Below are positions 1,931-13,103 of a DNA stretch of 64,000 bases, one piece after another; position 1 is the stretch's first letter; every line of letters begins with the position of its first letter. The DNA comes from Gammaproteobacteria bacterium (GTDB taxonomy: Bacteria; Pseudomonadota; Gammaproteobacteria; Xanthomonadales; SZUA-36). The position numbers and the translations under genes are program-made. The notes under the pieces were generated by a model. It was not told the DNA's origin and searched no databases. It was given only the letters and a program-made list of their open reading frames with translations. Location of the stretch: assembly GCA_024279945.1 (NCBI GenBank), contig JAJRRA010000070.1, forward strand, positions 1-64,000, given 5' to 3'.

Positions 1931-2048
1931 CTCCTATACTTTTTGTGATTGAAAAGGTAACAACCCGGATGGGCTGTGTATTGATATACACAGATATGCT
2001 GCGCTTGTCCCTCTTTACCGCCCTGGCAATTAATGAATGGAGGTTCGT

Positions 2049-2687
2049 ATGACACATCAGGACTGGAGTATGAAGGGACAGTGGTTGAAAAACTGCAACT
2101 GCGCCTATGGCTGCCCCTGCGATTTCAACGCGAGGCCAACACACGGGCATTGCGCGGGCATGGTCGGGATGAGAATCGAGTCTGGACATTTTGGTGACGT
2201 GGATTTGAGCGGTCTCCACTGGGCTGCTGTCTATCACTGGCCCGGCGCGCTGCATGAAGGCAACGGCACTTTGCAGCCGGTTATCGATGAGCGCGCAGAT
2301 GAGCAACAGCGTGCGGCGCTTCTCACGATCCTGAGCGGGCTGGAGCAAAACGATGGCACCTTTTTGCATATCGTCAGCATGATCGTCAGTGAGGTGCTGG
2401 AACCGCAATTCGTGCCGATGGAGTTTGAATTCGACCTCGAAAAGCGCAGGGCCCGCTTCGCTGCAGCCGGTGTTTTCGAGACCGTCAGTGAACCGATTCT
2501 CAATCCGGTGACCGGTGATGAGTATCGGGTCCAGGTGAGTATCCCTGAGCCATTTGAGTACGGCCTTGCCGAAATCGCCAGCGCCACCGTCAATAAGGGA
2601 ACCGGTGCGATCAAGTACGATTGGCCCAACTCCCACAGTTCCATGAGCTACGTCGAGCATACTCCGACCGGAGTTATCCAGCACTGA
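2049..2687 (+). CDS. DUF1326 domain protein
   Basis: This 212-residue cytoplasmic protein belongs to the DUF1326 family, whose function is not established. A tight N-terminal cysteine cluster is visible: Cys16, Cys18, Cys22, Cys24 and Cys35, in CNCAYGCPCDFN followed by HGHC, which suggests metal binding. ATG 2049 is chosen because TGGAGG ends 5 nt upstream; the in-frame ATG at 2037 would precede that site. The gene is followed after 48 nt by a DUF2182 membrane protein, a pairing I know from other proteobacteria, so the two probably act together. The upstream neighbour is transposon debris, so the pair may sit at an insertion hot spot. Metal binding is an inference from the cysteines. Confidence 0.85.
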   Translation: MTHQDWSMKGQWLKNCNCAYGCPCDFNARPTHGHCAGMVGMRIESGHFGDVDLSGLHWAAVYHWPGALHEGNGTLQPVIDERADEQQRAALLTILSGLEQNDGTFLHIVSMIVSEVLEPQFVPMEFEFDLEKRRARFAAAGVFETVSEPILNPVTGDEYRVQVSIPEPFEYGLAEIASATVNKGTGAIKYDWPNSHSSMSYVEHTPTGVIQH

Positions 2688-2735
2688 ACCACGGCAGTGG
2701 TTCACCCGAACATGGATTGACCGGAGGTAACCTCA

Positions 2736-3518
2736 TTGCTTGAGCGTCCGCTCGAAACCTTGTTGAAACAGGACCGGGCAGTGATCCTGACCGGCATGGC
2801 CGGGGTAACCGCGTTGGCCTGGGCTTATATGCTCTACCTCGCCTGGGCCATGCGCCCAATGGAAATGGCCATGGACCAGGCCATGCCCCGGATGCAGGCA
2901 TGGGGGCCCGTCGAGTTGTTACTAACCTTCGTCATGTGGTCGATCATGATGGTGGCAATGATGGTGCCTTCCGCAGCGCCGATGATCCTGCTGTTTGCCA
3001 CCATCAACCGCAAGCGGCGCCAGCAGGATCGGCCCCATGTCGCCACCGGCATATTCCTGGCCGCTTACCTGCTTGTCTGGACCCTGTTTAGCGTGTTTGC
3101 CACGCTGGCGCAGTGGGGTTTGCATTCTGCCGCGCTGCTGTCGCCAATGATGGTCAGCACCAATCATATCCTGGGCGGCACGCTGCTAATCGCCGCCGGG
3201 GTGTTTCAATGGACACCGCTCAAACACGCATGCCTGGCGCACTGCCGGGCGCCGTTTGAGTTCCTGATGTCCGACTGGCGCGAGGGCACCGGTGGCGCCT
3301 TCGTTATGGGGCTTAAACACGGCACATACTGTCTCGGCTGCTGCTGGTCCCTGATGGCGCTGCTGTTCGTCGTCGGTGTCATGAACCTGCTGTGGGTGGC
3401 GGCAATCGCCCTTTTCGTGCTGGTGGAAAAGGCAGCCCCCGGTGGCCCCGTAATTGGCCGCGCGACTGGCGCACTGCTTGTGGTCGCGGGTATCACGCTA
3501 CTCAGCCAGGGGGGCTGA
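2736..3518 (+). CDS. DUF2182 integral membrane protein
   Basis: This is a 260-residue polytopic membrane protein of the DUF2182 family, described as a predicted metal-binding integral membrane protein. The start is TTG 2736 with GGAGG at 2723-2727. About six to seven hydrophobic segments alternate with short loops. Features visible are a methionine-rich helix, MWSIMMVAMMVPSAAPM, at about 67-83, a Cys166/Cys170 pair, and the family motif KHGTYCLGCCWSLM with His195, Cys199, Cys202 and Cys203. Met, Cys and His lined up in membrane helices are typical of proteins handling copper or similar soft metals, but the substrate is unknown. It forms a two-gene unit with the preceding DUF1326 gene. Downstream are only weak hairpins before the ilv leader region. 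Confidence 0.85.
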   Translation: MLERPLETLLKQDRAVILTGMAGVTALAWAYMLYLAWAMRPMEMAMDQAMPRMQAWGPVELLLTFVMWSIMMVAMMVPSAAPMILLFATINRKRRQQDRPHVATGIFLAAYLLVWTLFSVFATLAQWGLHSAALLSPMMVSTNHILGGTLLIAAGVFQWTPLKHACLAHCRAPFEFLMSDWREGTGGAFVMGLKHGTYCLGCCWSLMALLFVVGVMNLLWVAAIALFVLVEKAAPGGPVIGRATGALLVVAGITLLSQGG

Positions 3519-3702: not shown

Positions 3703-3731
3703 TTGACTTCAAAAATTCGCTATGTTTCTAT
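3703..3731 (+). promoter_or_regulatory. promoter of the ilv-leu supraoperon
   Basis: TTGACT (3703-3708) is followed after 17 nt by TTCTAT (3726-3731), preceded by TG at 3723-3724 as in an extended -10 element. An A-tract lies just upstream of the -35. The predicted transcription start near 3738 leaves a leader of about 240 nt before ilvD, which contains the leader peptide and attenuator described below. The -35 is close to ideal and the -10 is weak. Confidence 0.55.
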
Positions 3732-3804
3732 CCGATGTATGCATGCGCGCAACGTCAATGTAGTCCAGCTTTCCCACCAGATTTTCGGTGCCTTGCCCGC
3801 GCGT

Positions 3805-3888
3805 ATGCTGAATGTGGATAGCCAAAACCTCATTCTAGCTTCTCTTATTGTGCTTCTTATTATTGGAAGAGGTGCGGGCACAGGCTGA
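3805..3888 (+). CDS. ilv/leu operon leader peptide
   Basis: This 27-residue ORF lies directly upstream of a strong terminator and of ilvD. Ten of twelve consecutive codons specify branched-chain amino acids (LILASLIVLLII, about 3829-3864): CTC, CTA and CTT for Leu, ATT for Ile, GTG for Val. This is the hallmark of an attenuation leader: scarcity of charged Leu-, Ile- or Val-tRNA would stall the ribosome before the terminator. The peptide ends GRGAGTG, and the stop (3886-3888) lies just after segment GCGGG (3874-3878). No good Shine-Dalgarno sequence precedes ATG 3805. An in-frame ATG at 3739 would give a 49-residue version nearly leaderless relative to the predicted transcript start. Composition and position, not homology, support the call. 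Confidence 0.7.
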   Translation: MLNVDSQNLILASLIVLLIIGRGAGTG

Positions 3889-3910
3889 GGCAACACAACA
3901 AACAAGCTGA

Positions 3911-3943
3911 AAAACCCGCGACAAGGATTGCGGGTTTTTTTTT
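3911..3943 (+). terminator. attenuator terminator before ilvD
   Basis: AAAACCCGC (3911-3919) pairs perfectly with GCGGGTTTT (3930-3938) around a 10-nt loop, and T-residues run from 3935 to 3943: a textbook intrinsic terminator. CCCGC of its left arm (3915-3919) can alternatively pair with GCGGG at 3874-3878, at the end of the leader peptide ORF, giving an antiterminator. A ribosome that reaches the leader stop codon would cover 3874-3878 and favour termination; one stalled in the Leu/Ile/Val run would leave it free. GCCCGCGC (3795-3802) can also pair with 3872-3879, completing a four-segment arrangement. Confidence 0.8.
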
Positions 3944-3977
3944 AGAATTTTGAACCAAACACCCTGGGATAGAAATA

Positions 3978-5669
3978 ATGCGTAGTGACCAAATCAAAAA
4001 AGGAACGGATCGGGCGCCGGCCCGCGCCATGCTTCGTGCAACCGGGCTGAATGACAAGCAGATAGCACAGCCCATGATAGCCGTCGTGAATACCTGGTCG
4101 GACGTCACGCCATGCAATATGCATTTGCGTGACCTGGCCAGGCCATTGAAAGAAGGGATCAGGGATGCCGGTGGCACCCCGGTCGAGTTTGGTAGTATTG
4201 TCGTCACCGATGGCATTTCGATGGGCTCGGAGGGTATGAAATGCTCCCTGATGTCCCGCGAAGTGGTCACCGACTCCATTGAACTGGCTACCCGCGGCCA
4301 TTGCCTGGACGGAGTGGTCACGCTGGTGGGCTGCGACAAGACCATCCCGGCCGGGGCCATGGCCCTGGCCCGTCTTGATATTCCCGGCATGGTGATCTAC
4401 GGCGGATCCATCATGCCTGGCGTGCACAAGGGCATCCCCATTACCATCCAGGAAGTTTTCGAGGCCGTGGGCGCCCGTGCTGCCGACAAGATCGACGATG
4501 AGGAACTCAAGGCCGTTGAAAGTAGCGCCTGCCCCGGCGCCGGTGCCTGCGGTGGGCAATTTACCGCCAATACCATGGCCCAGGTGCTCACCACGCTGGG
4601 CTTGTCGCCCATGGGCGTGAACGACATTCCGGCTGTTCATCCGGACAAGGCAGAAGCCATGTATGCCTGCGGTAAAATACTGGTGCAACAGGTCAAGGAC
4701 GGGCAGAGTGCGCGCCGGATGATCACGCTCGACTCACTGCGCAATGCCGCCACAGTGGTGACTGCAACCGCCGGGTCCACCAATGCCGTGCTGCACCTGC
4801 TGGCCATCGCCAGGGAAGCCGGTGTCGAGTTCAACATCGACGAATTCGATCAAATATCACGCAGCACACCGATTATCGCTGACCTGAAACCGGCCGGCCG
4901 CTTTATGGCTCCCGACCTGTTCCTGGCCGGCGGCACCCGCCTGGTGATTGAAAAGCTGCGGGAAGCAGGCCGTATGGTGAACGCTCCCACCGTCAGCGGC
5001 AAAAGCCTGTTCGAGGAAGCTGCGCAAGCCGAAGAAAGTCCGGGGCAGCAAGTCGTTGTTCCATTTGATCGGCCGCTGGAGATGCGCGGCGGCTTTGGCA
5101 TACTCTACGGCAACATTGCCCCCGAAGGCTGCGTCGCCAAATTGGCCGGCCACGGCGAGTTCTCTTTCAGCGGCCCGGCGCGGGTTTACGAGAGCGAGGA
5201 AGAATGTTTCCAGGCGGTCCAGAACCGCGAAATCAACAAGGGCGATGTCATCGTGATCCGTAACGAAGGCCCACGCGGCGGCCCGGGCATGCGCGAGATG
5301 CTGGCGGTAACCGCTGCACTGGTTGGCCAGGGTCTGGGTGACGATGTCGCCTTAATGACCGATGGGCGCTTCAGCGGCGCCAGCTATGGCTTTGTCATTG
5401 GCCATATCGCACCGGAAGCCGCCAACGGCGGACCCATTGCACTGCTTCGCGAAGGCGATATGATTACTATCGATGTAGACAAACGGGTGATCGATACCGA
5501 TGCAGACCTCGAATCCCGCCGCTGCGAATGGCAACCGCGAAAACCAGCTTACACATCAGGCGCGCTGGCCAAATACGCCTACATGGTGTCTTCCGCCTCG
5601 GAAGGCGCCGTTACCTCTTTCCCTCCATTAATGAATGACCAAACAAACGAATCAGAAACCCAGGAGTAA
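3978..5669 (+). CDS. ilvD: dihydroxy-acid dehydratase
   Basis: IlvD dehydrates 2,3-dihydroxy-isovalerate and 2,3-dihydroxy-3-methylvalerate to the keto acids that precede valine and isoleucine. The 563-residue length matches the shorter IlvD type rather than the roughly 616-residue E. coli enzyme. The three cluster-ligand cysteines appear as Cys46 (DVTPCNMH), Cys119 (VGCDKT) and Cys191 in [16 protein letters not shown]. The C-terminal motif GRFSGAS is present. It is the first structural gene after the attenuator. Its stop codon lies 7 nt before the ilvC start, indicating one transcript. The start ATG 3978 gives the normal N-terminus; only a weak GGGA precedes it. Confidence 0.96.
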
Positions 5670-5676
5670 ATGCACC

Positions 5677-6669
5677 ATGACCATGTATTTCGAAAAAGAC
5701 GCGAGCCTCAGCCCCCTTGAGGGCAAAACCGTTGCTGTGATCGGCTACGGCAGCCAGGGCCGCGCACATTCCAACAACCTGCATGAAAGCGGCGTCAACG
5801 TGGTAGTCGGCGTACGCGAAGGCGGCCCTTCGTGGACACAGGCGACGGCAGACGGACTGGCGGTTACCACGCCGGCACAAGCCGCAGCACAGGGCGACCT
5901 GATCGCCATCCTGCTACCCGATATGGTGCAGAAGAAGGTATTCGAGGAAGACATCAAGCCCAATGCAAAAGACGGTGCATCTATCCTGTTCGCACACGGC
6001 TTCAACATCCACTTCGGGCGCATCACCGTGCCGGACTCCATGGACGTGGTGATGGTGGCGCCCAAGGGCCCTGGCGATCTGGTTCGTCGCCAGTACCAGG
6101 AGGGCAAAGGCGTGCCCAGCCTGATGGCCGTTGAGCAGGATGCTTCCGGCGAGGCCTTTGACCGCACGCTGGCTTATGCCCATGGCATCGGCGGTACCCG
6201 CGGCGGCGTTATCACAACCACTTTCAAGGAAGAGACCGAGACGGATCTGTTTGGTGAGCAGGCCGTGTTGTGTGGTGGTGCAACGGAACTGGTGGTGCAG
6301 GGATTCCAGACCCTGGTTGATGCCGGCTATCAGCCTGAAGTGGCTTATTTTGAATGCATGCACGAGTTAAAACTGATCGTTGACCTGCTGTTTGAAGGCG
6401 GCCTGGCCAAGATGAACAAGTTCATCAGTGAAACCGCCCAGTACGGTGATTTCGTCAGCGGCCCGCGGATCATCAACGCTGAAACCAGGCAACGCATGAA
6501 GGAAGTTCTCGACGACATAACCAGCGGAAAGTTTGCCCAGGAATGGGCCGAGGAGTATGAATCCGGACTAACGAACTTCCGCCGCATGGAACAGGAAGAC
6601 CTGGATCAACCCATCGAGAAAGTGGGCGCTGCCCTGCGCGCACAGATGAGCTGGATCAACAGCGACTAA
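5677..6669 (+). CDS. ilvC: ketol-acid reductoisomerase
   Basis: IlvC isomerises and reduces acetolactate and acetohydroxybutyrate with NADPH, supplying the substrates of IlvD. The product is a 330-residue class I (short) enzyme. Visible are the Rossmann motif [17 protein letters not shown], the APKGPG motif, GGTRGG, and acidic metal ligands in [18 protein letters not shown] and the later [16 protein letters not shown] 5677 is preferred to upstream in-frame codons because AGGAG (5662-5666) is correctly placed and family members begin with a similar MxxYxxKD sequence. It lies between ilvD and leuA in the supraoperon. The reaction order IlvC then IlvD is reversed in the gene order. Confidence 0.96.
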
Positions 6670-6686: not shown

Positions 6687-8240
6687 ATGGCTGACTACGT
6701 ACATATTTTTGACACCACCCTGCGCGATGGCGAACAGTCACCAGGCTGTTCCATGAACATGCAGGAGAAACTGCAAGTGGCGCGAACCCTGGAAGATCTC
6801 GGTGTTGACGTCATAGAGGCCGGATTCCCGGCCGCATCTGATGGTGACTTCGAGTCTGTGAAAGCCGTGGGTGAACTGGGTCTCAATGCCACCATCTGTG
6901 GCCTGTCGCGCACACGCCGGGGCGATATTGATGCCGTTGCGCGGGCCCTGGAGACGGCCAACAAGGGGCGCTTACATATCTTCATCGCCACCAGCCCCAT
7001 CCACCGTGAATTCAAGCTCAAGATGAGCAAGCAACAAATTATCGATGAAGCCACCGGGGCGATCGAGTACGGCCTGCAATTTTTTGATGACGTTGAAATC
7101 ACCGCCGAAGATGCAGGACGCACGGAAATGGACTACCTGGTGGAATACTTCCAGGCAACAATCGACGCCGGGGCCCGTGTGCTGAATGTTCCGGATACCG
7201 TGGGCTATGTCACACCCAGCGAGATCCGCCAGCAATACCAGCACCTCAGCGACCACCTGGTCAAAGCGGATTCGGTCATCCTGAGCTGTCACTGCCACAA
7301 CGACCTGGGCCTGGCTGTGGCCAACAGCCTGGGCGCCATTGAGGGCGGCGCACGCCAGGTCGAGTGCACCATTAACGGCATCGGCGAGCGCGCCGGCAAC
7401 TGCTCACTGGAAGAGGTCGTGATGGCCTTGCGCACGCGGCATGACCGCTACAAACTGAGAACCGGCATCGATACCACGAAACTGTACCCGGCCAGTCGCG
7501 TCGTATCGGCTGTGACCGGTTCCAGCGTACAACCCAACAAAGCCATCGTCGGGCGCAATGCCTTCGCCCACGAGGCAGGCATCCACCAGGACGGCATCCT
7601 CAAGCACGCGGAAACCTACGAGATTATGAGACCGGAAACGGTCGGTGTGCCTGAAAACACACTGGTACTGGGCAAACACAGCGGCCGCCACGCTTTCAAT
7701 AACCGCCTGGAGATCCTCGGATTTTCCATTGGCAAGGAAGAGATGGAACAGCTTTTCGTTCGGTTCAAACAATTGGCGGACCGCAAAAAGAGTGTCTACG
7801 ATGAAGACATTGAAGCGCTGGTACTGGGAACACAGCACAGCGGCCCCTGGCACCTGGATGCAATCTCTATTCACACCGAAGTCGAGCAAAGCGACCAGTG
7901 CGCTGAGGCCAGCCTGAAAATGCGCTTCGACGGTGGGGCGCCGCGTATCTACAGCGGTCGGGGCGACGGGCCGGTCAATGCCATTGTGAACGCCATCAGG
8001 AAAATCATTGATGATGAACTGCACGTGGAAGAATTCCAGGTCAGCGCGGTCTCCAGCGGCAGTGATGCCCAGGGCCGCGCCACGGTGCGCGCCACCATTG
8101 GTCCCAGTCGCTATCAGGGCACCGGTGTCTCCACCGATATCGTAGAAGCATCGGCCCAGGCCATGGTCAGCATCATGAACCGGCACCACCAACACCAGGG
8201 CAAAGAGATTTCAGAGTCCCGGATTACTGCGGCGATCTGA
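6687..8240 (+). CDS. leuA: 2-isopropylmalate synthase
   Basis: LeuA condenses 2-ketoisovalerate with acetyl-CoA, the first committed step to leucine. The 517-residue protein begins with the catalytic TIM-barrel: [16 protein letters not shown] (residues 7-22), metal ligand motif HCHNDLGLA and the GIGERAGN loop. The C-terminal LeuA regulatory domain (roughly 390-510), which in relatives binds leucine for feedback inhibition, is complete. GGAG lies just upstream of ATG 6687, and ilvC ends 17 nt before. Leucine control is therefore probably two-layered: attenuation of the transcript and allosteric inhibition of the enzyme. Confidence 0.96.
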
Positions 8241-8293: not shown

Positions 8294-9724
8294 ATGCCGC
8301 AGCAGTCGCCGTCTGATTCAACGCTGTTCGAAAAGGTGTGGCAGCGCCACCTGGTCCGGGAAGAATCTGCCGAAACACCGGCCATTCTTTATATCGATCT
8401 GCACCTGTTGCACGAAGTCACCACGCCCCAGGCTTTTGCTGAACTGAAAAAGCGGGGCTTGAGTGTGCGCCGGCCGGACCGTTGCCTGGCCACCATTGAT
8501 CACTCCACACCGACTTCAGCGCCCGATGCCGAGGGCCGGCATCACTACGTGACCGAACAGGCGCGCGACCAGGTGGAAACCGTGCAACGCAACTGCGCCA
8601 AACACGGCATCGTCCTGCATGGCTGGGACAGCCCCAACCGTGGCATCATTCACGTGATGGGCCCGGAACTGGGCGCAACCCAGCCCGGCATGACCATCGT
8701 TTGTGGTGACAGCCACACCAGTACGCACGGTGCTTTCGGCGCCCTGGCATTCGGCATCGGCACAACCGAAGTCGGGCACGTGCTGGCCAGCCAGTGCCTG
8801 CTGCAGAGCAAACCGAATACCCTGGGCATTCGCATCGAGGGTGAACTCGCACCGGGCGTGACCGCCAAGGACGTGATCCTGCACATCATCGGGACAATCG
8901 GTGTAGACGGCGGCACCGGTTCGGTGATCGAGTACTACGGCTCTACCGTCCGGGCCATGGATATGGACAGCCGCATGACCCTGTGCAATATGTCCATTGA
9001 GTGCGGAGCACGCGCAGGCATGGTTGCACCGGACGAAGTCACGTTTGACTACCTGGCCGGGAGACCACTGTCCCCGCAGGGCGAAGCCTGGGATACAGCC
9101 GTAGCCGACTGGAAAACCCTGAAAACAGATGCGGGGGCGACATACGGTGCGCAGGTGGACATTGATGCCACCGCCATCCGGCCTTCGGTCACCTACGGCA
9201 CCCATCCTGGCATGGTAGTGGCGGTCGATGAGGCGATCCCGTCAGGCGATACCAATGAATCCATCGCCGCTGCACTTGAATACATGGGCTTCAAGGCGGG
9301 ACAAACACTGGCGGACGAATCTGTAGATGTTGTTTTTATCGGCAGTTGCACCAATTCGCGGCTCAGTGATTTACGTGCAGCCGCCGGTATCATGAAAAAC
9401 CGCAAAGTGGCGCACGGCCTGCGTGCCCTGGTGGTGCCCGGTTCCGAGGAGGTTCGCAGGGCTGCCGAAGCCGACGGACTGGACCGTATTTTTATCGACG
9501 CCGGCGCCCAGTGGCGCGAACCGGGCTGCTCCATGTGCATCGGCATGAACGGAGATATTGCCGCCCCGGGTGAACTGGTCGTCAGTACCAGCAACCGGAA
9601 TTTCAAGGGCCGCCAGGGTCCACTAAGCCGCACCATCCTGGCCAGCCCGCTGACAGCGGCAGCCTGCGCCATTACCGGCAGGGTGAGTAGCGCACAACAG
9701 TTCCTGGAGGCCGGCAGTGACTGA
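8294..9724 (+). CDS. leuC: isopropylmalate isomerase large subunit
   Basis: LeuC pairs with LeuD to convert 2-isopropylmalate to 3-isopropylmalate using a [4Fe-4S] cluster. The 476-residue protein shows the aconitase-family signatures [19 protein letters not shown] and the cluster cysteines in FIGSCTNSR and CSMCIGMN. A strong ribosome-binding site (GGGAGG, 8282-8287) precedes ATG 8294. The 53-nt gap after leuA is the widest between ilvD and leuC, and no promoter stands out in it. The stop codon overlaps the GTG start of leuD by 8 nt, which suggests coupled translation of the two subunits. Confidence 0.96.
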
Positions 9725-10310
9725 GCAAGCCAATAATTTAAATACTGAATTCCGTTCGCGTACGTACAATATACCGCTGGATAATATTGACACCGACCAG
9801 ATCATACCGGCCCAGTTTCTGACCACGACCAACCGTGAAGGACTGGGTGAGTTCTGTTTTTATGCCTGGCGTTTCAATGAAGACGGTACGGCAAAGGAAA
9901 ACAATCCGCTACGTGATCATCACCCGGACCGCCAGCAGGTGCTGGTCGTGGGCAGTAATTTCGGCTGTGGATCCTCGCGGGAACACGCACCCTGGGCGCT
10001 GCTTGATTACGGTATCCGGGCAGTCATCAGCAGTCGTTTTGCAGACATTTTCTGCAACAATTCCCTCAAAAATGGCCTCATACCGGTCACAGTCGAAGAG
10101 CAACTTGTCGAATATCTGCACGCCCATCCGGACAGCGCAGTTCGTATTGACATCGCCCGGCGGCAACTGACGGTCGAAAATTACGGGACCATCCAATTCC
10201 CGCTGGACGCTTTCTCCGCATTCTGCCTGACACGTGGAATCGACCAACTGGACTTCATCCTGCAAAACGAACAGGAAATCAGCGCACATGAACAAAAGTA
10301 CAACAAGTAG
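9717..10310 (+). CDS. leuD: isopropylmalate isomerase small subunit
   Basis: This is the 197-residue partner of LeuC. It carries the swivelling domain with motifs [14 protein letters not shown] near the N-terminus and [17 protein letters not shown] in the middle, which together bind substrate. It starts with GTG at 9717 inside the leuC coding region, with GGAGG just upstream. It ends with TAG at 10308-10310, inside leuB, so TAG is a genuine terminator in this genome. The length is normal for the family. Confidence 0.96.
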
Positions 10311-11388
10311 AAGTGCCAAAACCTTCCGGGTCGCCGGCCTTCCGGGTGACGGTGTCGGCCCCGAGGTCTATCAGTCCGCCCGCCAGGTGCTTGCGCTGAT
10401 GGATGCCTGCTTCAATCTCTCGATTGAACTGGATGAACAACTCATTGGCGGCGCCGCTGTTGATGCCACCGGCAATCCGTTACCCCAGGCCACGATTGAT
10501 GCCTGTAAATCGGCAGATGCCGCCCTGCTGGGTGCTGTGGGCGGGCCAAAATGGGACACCAACCCGGCAGAACAGCGCCCCGAGTTTGGCCTGCTGAAGA
10601 TTCGTTCCACATTCAATCTGTTCTGTAACCTCCGGCCCATCGTAACCCACCCTACCCTGCACGCATTTTCTCCACTCCGGCCGGAACGCCTGGCGGGCGT
10701 GGACCTGATGATGGTCAGGGAACTGACCGGTGGTATTTACTTCGGTAAAAAATGGCGTGAGGCTGACCAGGCGGAAGACGTGTGTCGTTATACCCGCAGT
10801 GAAATCGAACGGATCACGCGTGCTGCCGGTGACCTGGCCCGCCAGCGCAAAGGCCGGATCACCATGGTGGACAAAGCCAATGTGCTGGAAACCTCCCGCC
10901 TCTGGCGTGAAGTGGTCAGCCAGGTGCTGGAAGACGAATTCCCGGATGTCAGCCTGGAGAACCTGCTGGTCGATTCCGCTGCCATGCACCTGTTGACCCG
11001 ACCTGCTGATTTCGATGTGATGCTGACCGAAAACATGTTCGGCGACATCCTCTCCGATGAGGCGTCCATGCTGTGCGGCTCAATGGGTCTGCTGCCTTCA
11101 GCATCCCTTAACGAAAGCCGCTTCGGCTTGTACGAACCCATTCACGGTTCGGCCCCGGATATTGCCGGTCAAGGCAAGGCCAACCCCTACGCCATGCTGT
11201 TGTCCGTTGCGATGATGTTACGTCACTCTCTGGATTGCACCAACGAGGCCGAGGCCCTGGAGCACAGTATTTACCGCTGCTGGGACGAGGGCATACTGAC
11301 CCCGGATCTGGGTGGCGCATGCAGCACCACTCAAATCACGGATGCGGTTTGCGAGCGACTCAGTTCCAGCGCGAATACTGCCGGTTGA
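10288..11388 (+). CDS. leuB: 3-isopropylmalate dehydrogenase
   Basis: LeuB oxidatively decarboxylates 3-isopropylmalate with NAD to 2-ketoisocaproate, the leucine keto acid. The 366-residue protein has the N-terminal LPGDGVGPEV motif, the substrate arginines in RSTFNLFCNLRP and MMVRELTGGIYFG, the NMFGDILSDEA metal-binding motif and EPIHGSAPDIAG for NAD. ATG 10288 is chosen over the upstream in-frame ATG 10234 because it gives the family N-terminus and follows an AGGA. The 23-nt overlap with leuD indicates translational coupling. Confidence 0.96.
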   Translation: MNKSTTSRSAKTFRVAGLPGDGVGPEVYQSARQVLALMDACFNLSIELDEQLIGGAAVDATGNPLPQATIDACKSADAALLGAVGGPKWDTNPAEQRPEFGLLKIRSTFNLFCNLRPIVTHPTLHAFSPLRPERLAGVDLMMVRELTGGIYFGKKWREADQAEDVCRYTRSEIERITRAAGDLARQRKGRITMVDKANVLETSRLWREVVSQVLEDEFPDVSLENLLVDSAAMHLLTRPADFDVMLTENMFGDILSDEASMLCGSMGLLPSASLNESRFGLYEPIHGSAPDIAGQGKANPYAMLLSVAMMLRHSLDCTNEAEALEHSIYRCWDEGILTPDLGGACSTTQITDAVCERLSSSANTAG

Positions 11389-11413: not shown

Positions 11414-13018
11414 ATGAAAGAATCCAGCCAACCACCTGCTGCCTTTCCGGCTCAGACCGATGTGTCGCGCAAGTTGTTGTTCGACAAATACATCCCGCAG
11501 ATCATGCAGTGCAGGCTGGATGACCTGGTGCAGGAGACTCCCTTACAGGATATGCCGGCACTGTCCGAACGACTTGGCGTCCGTGTTTTAATCAAGCGTG
11601 AAGACCTGCAAGCGGTATTCTCCTTCAAGCTGAGAGGCGCTTACGCCAGGCTGCTGAAACTGGATGAAGCACAAAAACGCCAGGGCGTGATCTGCGCCTC
11701 GGCCGGAAACCACGCCCAGGGCGTCGCCCTGGCAGCACGGCACCTGGACATTGATGCGGTGATTGTCATGCCGGCCATCACGCCCGATATCAAAATCGAT
11801 GCAGTGAAGAAACTGGGCGCTACCGTGATCATCCATGGAGATGATCTTGATACCGCCTGCATACGCGCCCTGGAACTGGCCCAAGAGAACAACCAGGTCT
11901 TCGTCCATCCCTACGATGACCCGGACGTGATTACCGACCAGGCAACCATTGCGCTGGAATTGTTCCGCCAAAGCCGCGCTCCCATTGACTACCTGTTCAT
12001 ACCGGTCGGTGGTGGTGGGCTGGCGGCAGGTATGGCCCTGGTGAGTCGCTACCTGTACCCGGCCACCCGGCTGATTGGTGTGGAAGCCGAAGAATCAGCA
12101 TCCATGCAGGCGGCGTTTCAGGCCGGCAGGCCCGTGTCATTGCCCGAAGTCGGCCATTTCGCCGAGGGTGTGGCTGTGAAACAGGTCGGCGACACCAGTT
12201 TTGCCATCTGTTCCCAGTTGTTGGATTAAATCATTACCGTGGACAACGATGAAATTTGTGCTGCGGTGCAGGATACCTATGAAGACACCCGGGCCATCGC
12301 AGAGCCATCCGGCGCCCTGGCCATCGCGGGCATGAAGCGCTGGTTCGCGGATAACCCCAGCGGAAATTCCGACAAAACCCCCGGCTGTGCCGCCACGATT
12401 TTGTCCGGCGCCAATGTGAATTTTGCCCGCTTGCGGCATATTGCCGAACGGGCAGCCGTGGGTGAAGATCAGGAAGCTCTGCTGGGTGTCACCATTCCCG
12501 AACATCCAGGCAGCTTCCTGGAATTTTGTGAGACCATTGGCCAGCGCGGTATCACCGAGTTCATTTATCGCTACGCGGACCGCTCCAACGCCCATCTTTT
12601 TGTCGGCATTGCACTCAAAGACGGATTGGCAGAGAAAAAGGAGATACTGAGTAGACTCCGGGAGCACGGCTTTCCGGTGTCTGATCTTTCCAGCAACGAC
12701 ATGGCGCGCCTGCATATCCGTCATATGGTTGGTGGGCGAGCGGATGTCAAAAATGAGCACCTGTACCGCTTCGAGTTTCCCGAGCGCCCGGGCGCCCTAC
12801 TCAATTTCCTGCGAGGGATGAAAACGGACTGGAACGTCAGCCTGTTTCATTACCGCAATTACGGCTCGGAATACGGTCGCGTGCTGATGGGCATCCAGGT
12901 GCCTGAAGAAGACCACATACGCTTCCAGCGTTTCCTCGCCGATACCGGCTACAGCTACCTCTCAGAAGCCGACAATACCGCCTATGACATGTTCGTTGGC
13001 CCACCAACAAACCTGTAA
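11414..13018 (+). pseudogene. ilvA: threonine dehydratase with in-frame TAA
   Basis: IlvA deaminates threonine to 2-oxobutyrate, the first step specific to isoleucine. Both parts of the biosynthetic enzyme are present in one frame. The PLP-dependent catalytic domain has the Schiff-base lysine motif FSFKLRGAY, ASAGNHAQG and the PLP phosphate loop GGGGLAAGMA. Two ACT-like regulatory domains occupy the last third. A TAA at 12227-12229 interrupts the frame after residue 271, between SQLLD and IITVDNDEIC; homologues usually have Glu there (LVDEIITVD), so a GAA-to-TAA change explains it. The second half resumes at once with GTG 12239 available. Unless the stop is a sequence error or is suppressed, the catalytic domain is truncated and isoleucine synthesis would need another IlvA or another route. 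It is the last gene of the operon. Confidence 0.9.
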
Positions 13019-13032
13019 GCATTCGCACAGCC

Positions 13033-13103
13033 GGGGTCAGACCACTTTTTCCTGTGCCACCTTTCAATGAACAAGGTCTTGCTGGAAAAAGTGCTCTGAC
13101 CCC
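13033..13103. repeat. GGGGTCAG palindrome, copy A
   Basis: The left arm at 13033-13052 and the right arm at 13084-13103 pair over 19 of 20 bases around a 31-nt loop. The arm begins GGGGTCAGA and continues CCACTTTTTCC. It lies just after ilvA, between genes on opposite strands, where it could act as a transcription terminator in both directions. It belongs to a family with copies near 15.4, 19.7 and 24.2 kb that share only the GGGGTCAG tip. Confidence 0.85.

Follow-up and report, generated by a model that had tools for sequence, protein, structure and literature searches.

A predicted ribosome-mediated attenuator with a promoter-proximal leader start ahead of the ilv-leu operon in a gammaproteobacterium and its relatives

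Ribosome-mediated attenuation of operons for the synthesis of branched-chain amino acids (BCAAs) is textbook knowledge. In the 64,000-nucleotide stretch of a gammaproteobacterial contig analyzed here (hereafter the window), an ilv-leu operon is preceded by a promoter, a small open reading frame (ORF) and a hairpin, which raises the question of whether the operon is governed in this way and, if so, where translation of the leader begins. An earlier note, made from the letters of the DNA, had proposed attenuation of the entire supraoperon through a 27-codon leader. Our reading, a prediction from sequence to which we give a probability of about 0.9, is that of a ribosome-mediated attenuator whose leader very probably starts at ATG 3739 and which controls ilvD-ilvC-leuA-leuC-leuD-leuB-ilvA.

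The ilv-leu operon and its BCAA-rich leader

The seven genes are separated by gaps of no more than 53 nt or overlap (Table 1), and between 3.9 and 11.4 kb the operon contains no convincing forward terminator with a genuine T run. The last gene, ilvA, is split by its in-frame TAA into ORFs of 271 and 259 aa in the same frame. Threonine ammonia-lyase is the match for both halves, neither of which reaches the NCBIfam cut-off for the whole protein, and the residue at this site in relatives is mostly Glu, in some cases Asp or Ala. The TAA in this assembly is either a nonsense mutation or an assembly error. Acetolactate synthase and ilvE are absent from the operon, which therefore does not span the whole pathway. 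Two biosynthetic-type acetolactate synthase large-subunit genes sit on other contigs of the genome, and no BCAA-rich leader is found in the ~1.4 kb upstream of them. The idea of attenuation over a seven-gene supraoperon is supported by the conservation described below, with the qualification that the operon covers the pathway incompletely and that ilvA carries a nonsense codon in this assembly.

Upstream of the operon, at 2037-3518, the window holds two uncharacterized genes of 216 and 260 aa, the latter membrane-like, with no NCBIfam family match. Just past ilvA, at 13030-13100, lies an inverted repeat, GTCAGACCACTTTTTCC ... GGAAAAAGTGCTCTGAC, that by eye has a REP-like look.

Table 1. Coordinates of the leader region and of the ilv-leu operon in the window.
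Feature	Position	Strand	Remarks
-35 element, TTGACT	3703..3708	+	TTGAC[A/T] in 31/31 aligned leaders of the order
-10 element, TTCTAT	3726..3731	+	weak; spacer 17; position conserved
Leader peptide ORF, 49 codons, MHARNVNVVQLSHQIFGALPARMLNVDSQNLILASLIVLLIIGRGAGTG	3739..3888	+	in-frame ATG 7 nt past the -10
Possible segment 1 (protector), UGCCCGCGC	3794..3802	+	pairs with 3872-3880; not conserved in L002
Control codons, L I L A S L I V L L I I	3829..3864 (CTC..ATT)	+	10/12 Leu/Ile/Val
Segment 2, antiterminator 5' arm, UGCGGG	3873..3878	+	within the last leader codons; core pairs in 33/33 leaders
Inner antiterminator helix, GGCU near the stop with AGCU 3905-3908	3882..3909	+	fold; L001-L004 and L008
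Intrinsic terminator: segment 3 AAACCCGC 3912-3919, segment 4 GCGGGTTT 3930-3937, T run to 3943	3912..3943	+	
ilvD, dihydroxy-acid dehydratase	3978..5669	+	NCBIfam NF002068/TIGR00110 over cut-off
ilvC, ketol-acid reductoisomerase	5635..6669 (start possibly 5683)	+	TIGR00465 over cut-off
leuA, 2-isopropylmalate synthase	6687..8240	+	TIGR00973 over cut-off
leuC, isopropylmalate dehydratase large subunit	8294..9724	+	TIGR00170 over cut-off
leuD, isopropylmalate dehydratase small subunit	9717..10310	+	TIGR00171 over cut-off
leuB, 3-isopropylmalate dehydrogenase	10291..11388 (start inferred)	+	TIGR00169 over cut-off
ilvA, threonine ammonia-lyase	11414..13018, in-frame TAA 12227-12229	+	NCBIfam, halves

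Both strands of the window were scanned for ORFs of 12-70 codons that start with ATG and hold at least 10 Leu/Ile/Val codons in 12, and then for a hairpin and T run behind them. One ORF with both a BCAA run and a terminator was recovered, namely the ilvD leader, while 20 base-shuffled windows gave a single BCAA-run ORF in total and none with a terminator. The ten branched-chain codons in twelve that had been noticed before are thus present and, in combination with a terminator, unique in the window.

The control codons are biased to less-used synonymous codons. Leu is never encoded by CTG in the run of the window (CTG makes up 0.67 of the Leu codons of the operon), Ile is always ATT (0.33 in the operon), and in the leaders taken together GTA predominates for Val and CTC or CTT for Leu. 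Outside the control run, the peptide is poorly conserved between relatives; between L001 and L002 there are 9/6/6 changes by codon position, i.e. changes at all positions, and the peptide therefore seems unconstrained there.

Promoter and start of the leader

The leader was compared with those of relatives identified by a whole-genome search with IlvD, which gave 31 leaders before ilvD, that of the window included, from seven families of one order; a contig search with IlvD gave five loci. Since the relatives are linked by descent, the leader counts are not independent. TTGAC[A/T], a terminator and an ORF rich in BCAA codons occur together in all 31 leaders of the order, so that the leader frame and its branched-chain codons upstream of ilvD are kept in 30 relatives. 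The promoter postulated ahead of the leader has its -35 element in place. A sigma-70 scan of the window did not pick up this promoter because its -10 element, which matches at three of six positions, is too weak for the scan threshold; the same element reads TTTTAT in the same-genus relative L002.

The 27-codon leader of the earlier note opens at ATG 3805. This length very probably has to be revised, as the same frame opens already at 3739, with its stop codon (TGA) at 3886-3888, and it is the upstream start that is conserved in relatives. The first in-frame ATG lies 6-10 nt past the -10 hexamer in 30 of the 31 leaders of the order, and the distance from the beginning of the -35 element to the leader ATG is 35-39 nt, again in 30 of 31. 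Transcription normally begins ~7 nt past the -10 element; given this usual start and the spacing observed, the ATG is predicted to lie at or near the 5' end of the RNA, and the leader mRNA to be leaderless or nearly so. The exception is L027, where 35 nt separate the -10 element from the leader ATG, and leaderlessness is thus not universal in the order.

The same attenuator could in principle be served by a leader of conventional, short length that begins in frame at ATG 3805, behind a 5' untranslated region of ~65 nt. This alternative is very improbable: the codon aligned with ATG 3805 is AAG in L002, whose peptide pairs with that of the window from 3739 onwards (MYTRNVSV.. with MHARNVNV..), and the relatives share the promoter-proximal ATG instead. 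In addition, no Shine-Dalgarno sequence is visible in the window before ATG 3805, nor is one before ATG 3739. The leader thus very probably starts at ATG 3739.

In a Xanthomonadaceae-like group of genomes (f12), the genes are ordered leuA..leuC-leuD-leuB-ilvD-ilvC..ilvA, and a leader looked for before ilvD was not found. The three genomes of this group that were read through (L090, L091 and L104) have a leader of this kind ahead of leuA. In either gene order, the module therefore stands ahead of the gene that opens the operon. Judging from these comparisons, it is likely that the BCAA attenuator of the order is as a rule leaderless, with ribosomes loading on the emerging RNA without a Shine-Dalgarno sequence, and that the module stands at whichever gene comes first after reordering.

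Five f12 loci (L047, L049, L050, L052 and L055) show a recurring pair, CCCCTGCGTG ... CACGCAGGGG, between leuB and ilvD, ~80-100 nt apart and with T residues after it; in the loci tested against Rfam, nothing matched it at gathering level. As to whether leaderless attenuators are general in these relatives, the surroundings of hisG yielded no His-rich leader in 30 loci, and 13 stretches in which thrA should begin yielded no Thr/Ile-rich one. These scans were simple, and the negatives are accordingly weak.

Antiterminator, terminator and proposed mechanism

The region shows three features of the attenuator class: a BCAA-codon ORF upstream of biosynthetic genes, an intrinsic terminator before the first of them, and an alternative antiterminator at the end of the leader. 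In the window, GCGGG at 3874-3878 is complementary to CCCGC at 3915-3919, as had been pointed out before, with one further U-G pair possible, and the terminator with its U-run likewise stands before ilvD. A second, inner helix lengthens the antiterminator in the window and its nearest relatives, with CAGG:CCUG in L003 and L008. Taken alone, the 5-6 bp antiterminator of the window (shuffle p ~0.10) and the fold of its whole leader (z -1.79) are not beyond chance; the support comes from conservation in relatives.

Structures were counted in 33 leaders, namely the 31 of the order (window included), L033 and L034. In every one, the terminator is followed by a T run and its 5' arm finds a complementary segment in the last leader codons. 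Three pairs of the antiterminator core are found in all 33 leaders and a fourth in 32. The core of L027 has A-T in place of G-C pairs, a two-sided change, and two-sided changes also occur in the flank (GGTA:TACC in f9, GGTG:CACC in L008 and GAGT:ACTT in L009). Furthermore, the leaders' own antiterminator pairings differ from shuffles at p < 0.05 in 24 cases out of 33.

A comparison of three stems had been suggested as a check; conservation is seen for the antiterminator, with covariation, and for the terminator, and is not general for the 1:2 protector. The protector pairing has a p of 0.037 in the window and is significant in few relatives, L002 and most others not being among them. A universal protector stem was therefore rejected and left out of the conserved design.

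L033 and L034 derive from MAG contigs deposited as Robiginitomaculum (L033:9758) and Hellea (L034:4880), and their IlvD proteins are 64-65% identical to that of the window. In both, a BCAA leader attenuator precedes the IlvD gene without a promoter-proximal start, and the leader ATG may have a purine-rich stretch ahead of it.

We read the ilv-leu leader as an attenuator because the 30 relatives retain the frame of the leader and its control codons, the core of the antiterminator, and the terminator. Transcription would start ~7 nt past the -10 element, which places the 5' end on ATG 3739 or 1-2 nt away from it, and the RNA on which the ribosome initiates would be (nearly) leaderless. A shortage of Leu-, Ile- or Val-tRNA would be expected to stall the ribosome in codons 3829-3864, so that segment 2 (3873-3878) would be available for pairing with segment 3 (3915-3920); this pairing would block the terminator (3912-3937 and the U run), and the operon would be read. 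If all three amino acids were plentiful, the ribosome would reach the stop at 3886 and cover segment 2, so that the terminator would end transcription.

A terminator and an antiterminator by themselves would suit any attenuator, and the terminator might be constitutive or controlled by a protein, a tRNA or a small molecule, the BCAA-rich ORF being incidental. However, the BCAA runs are kept in 31/31 leaders and show the rare-codon bias described above, and the peptide varies freely outside the run, as expected if the control codons alone matter. In Rfam searches of the window and 15 loci, nothing of the leader, riboswitch or T-box type reached the gathering threshold; among the best matches below it are Phe_leader at 28.6 bits and Leu_leader (RF00512) at 20.4 bits, short of its cut-off of 50. 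We therefore regard control of this other kind as very improbable. Equally slight is the chance that the main role of the leader is to release, upon termination, a short RNA or peptide acting in trans. There is a precedent in the leaderless trpL of Sinorhizobium meliloti, whose products rnTrpL and peTrpL are reported to act in trans (PMC7298713), but the poor conservation of the peptide outside the control run speaks against such a role here, and nothing else points to a trans target. Attenuation by the translating ribosome thus remains our preferred reading.

Relation to known attenuators

The corrected leader start and the conserved, predicted leaderless initiation are in our view the most interesting part of these results: what is unusual is that, in this order, the first nucleotides of the RNA seem to be those of the small leader gene, with no ribosome-binding region before it. 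The open-access literature searched did not yield any account of leaderless BCAA leaders from Xanthomonadales; the key comparative survey of 2004 lies outside that search, and novelty is thus claimed cautiously. For a group that has received little study, the results describe a combined ilv-leu operon with an attenuator that is well supported, and they show a regulatory module that keeps its place at the head of the operon when the genes are reshuffled. In addition, the order lends itself to a wide natural test of the idea that, in attenuation, a leaderless start favors the coupling of RNA polymerase with the first ribosome.

The classical BCAA attenuators of enterobacteria include those of E. 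coli ilvGMEDA, ilvBN and leuABCD (compare the Leu_leader of Rfam RF00512). The leader described here resembles them in its BCAA-coding peptide, its mutually exclusive antiterminator and terminator and its U run. In contrast to them, it stands as one leader before a joint ilv-leu operon, it is long (36-53 aa in most of the order, from the predicted 5' end), and its protector stem is not conserved. Leader-peptide attenuators of proteobacterial amino acid operons, reportedly including ilv/leu operons of Xanthomonadales, are said to have been predicted comparatively by Vitreschak et al. in 2004, and the present case, itself a comparative prediction, would be of the same kind.

The ilvBNC attenuator of Corynebacterium glutamicum (ilvB-II motif) has an mRNA start one nucleotide from the start codon and translation-dependent attenuation (PMC11857589; PMC10272879), and as a near-leaderless BCAA attenuator it is backed by mutational evidence (PMC11857589), so that the kind itself is already known. 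It shares with the present leader the BCAA codons and the near-leaderless start (predicted here), and differs in its 15-aa leader, its ilvBNC operon and its phylum. The attenuator transcript of S. meliloti trpL likewise has its 5' end at the leader ATG (PMC7298713), whereas it belongs to a Trp operon of an alphaproteobacterium and encodes a 14-aa peptide.
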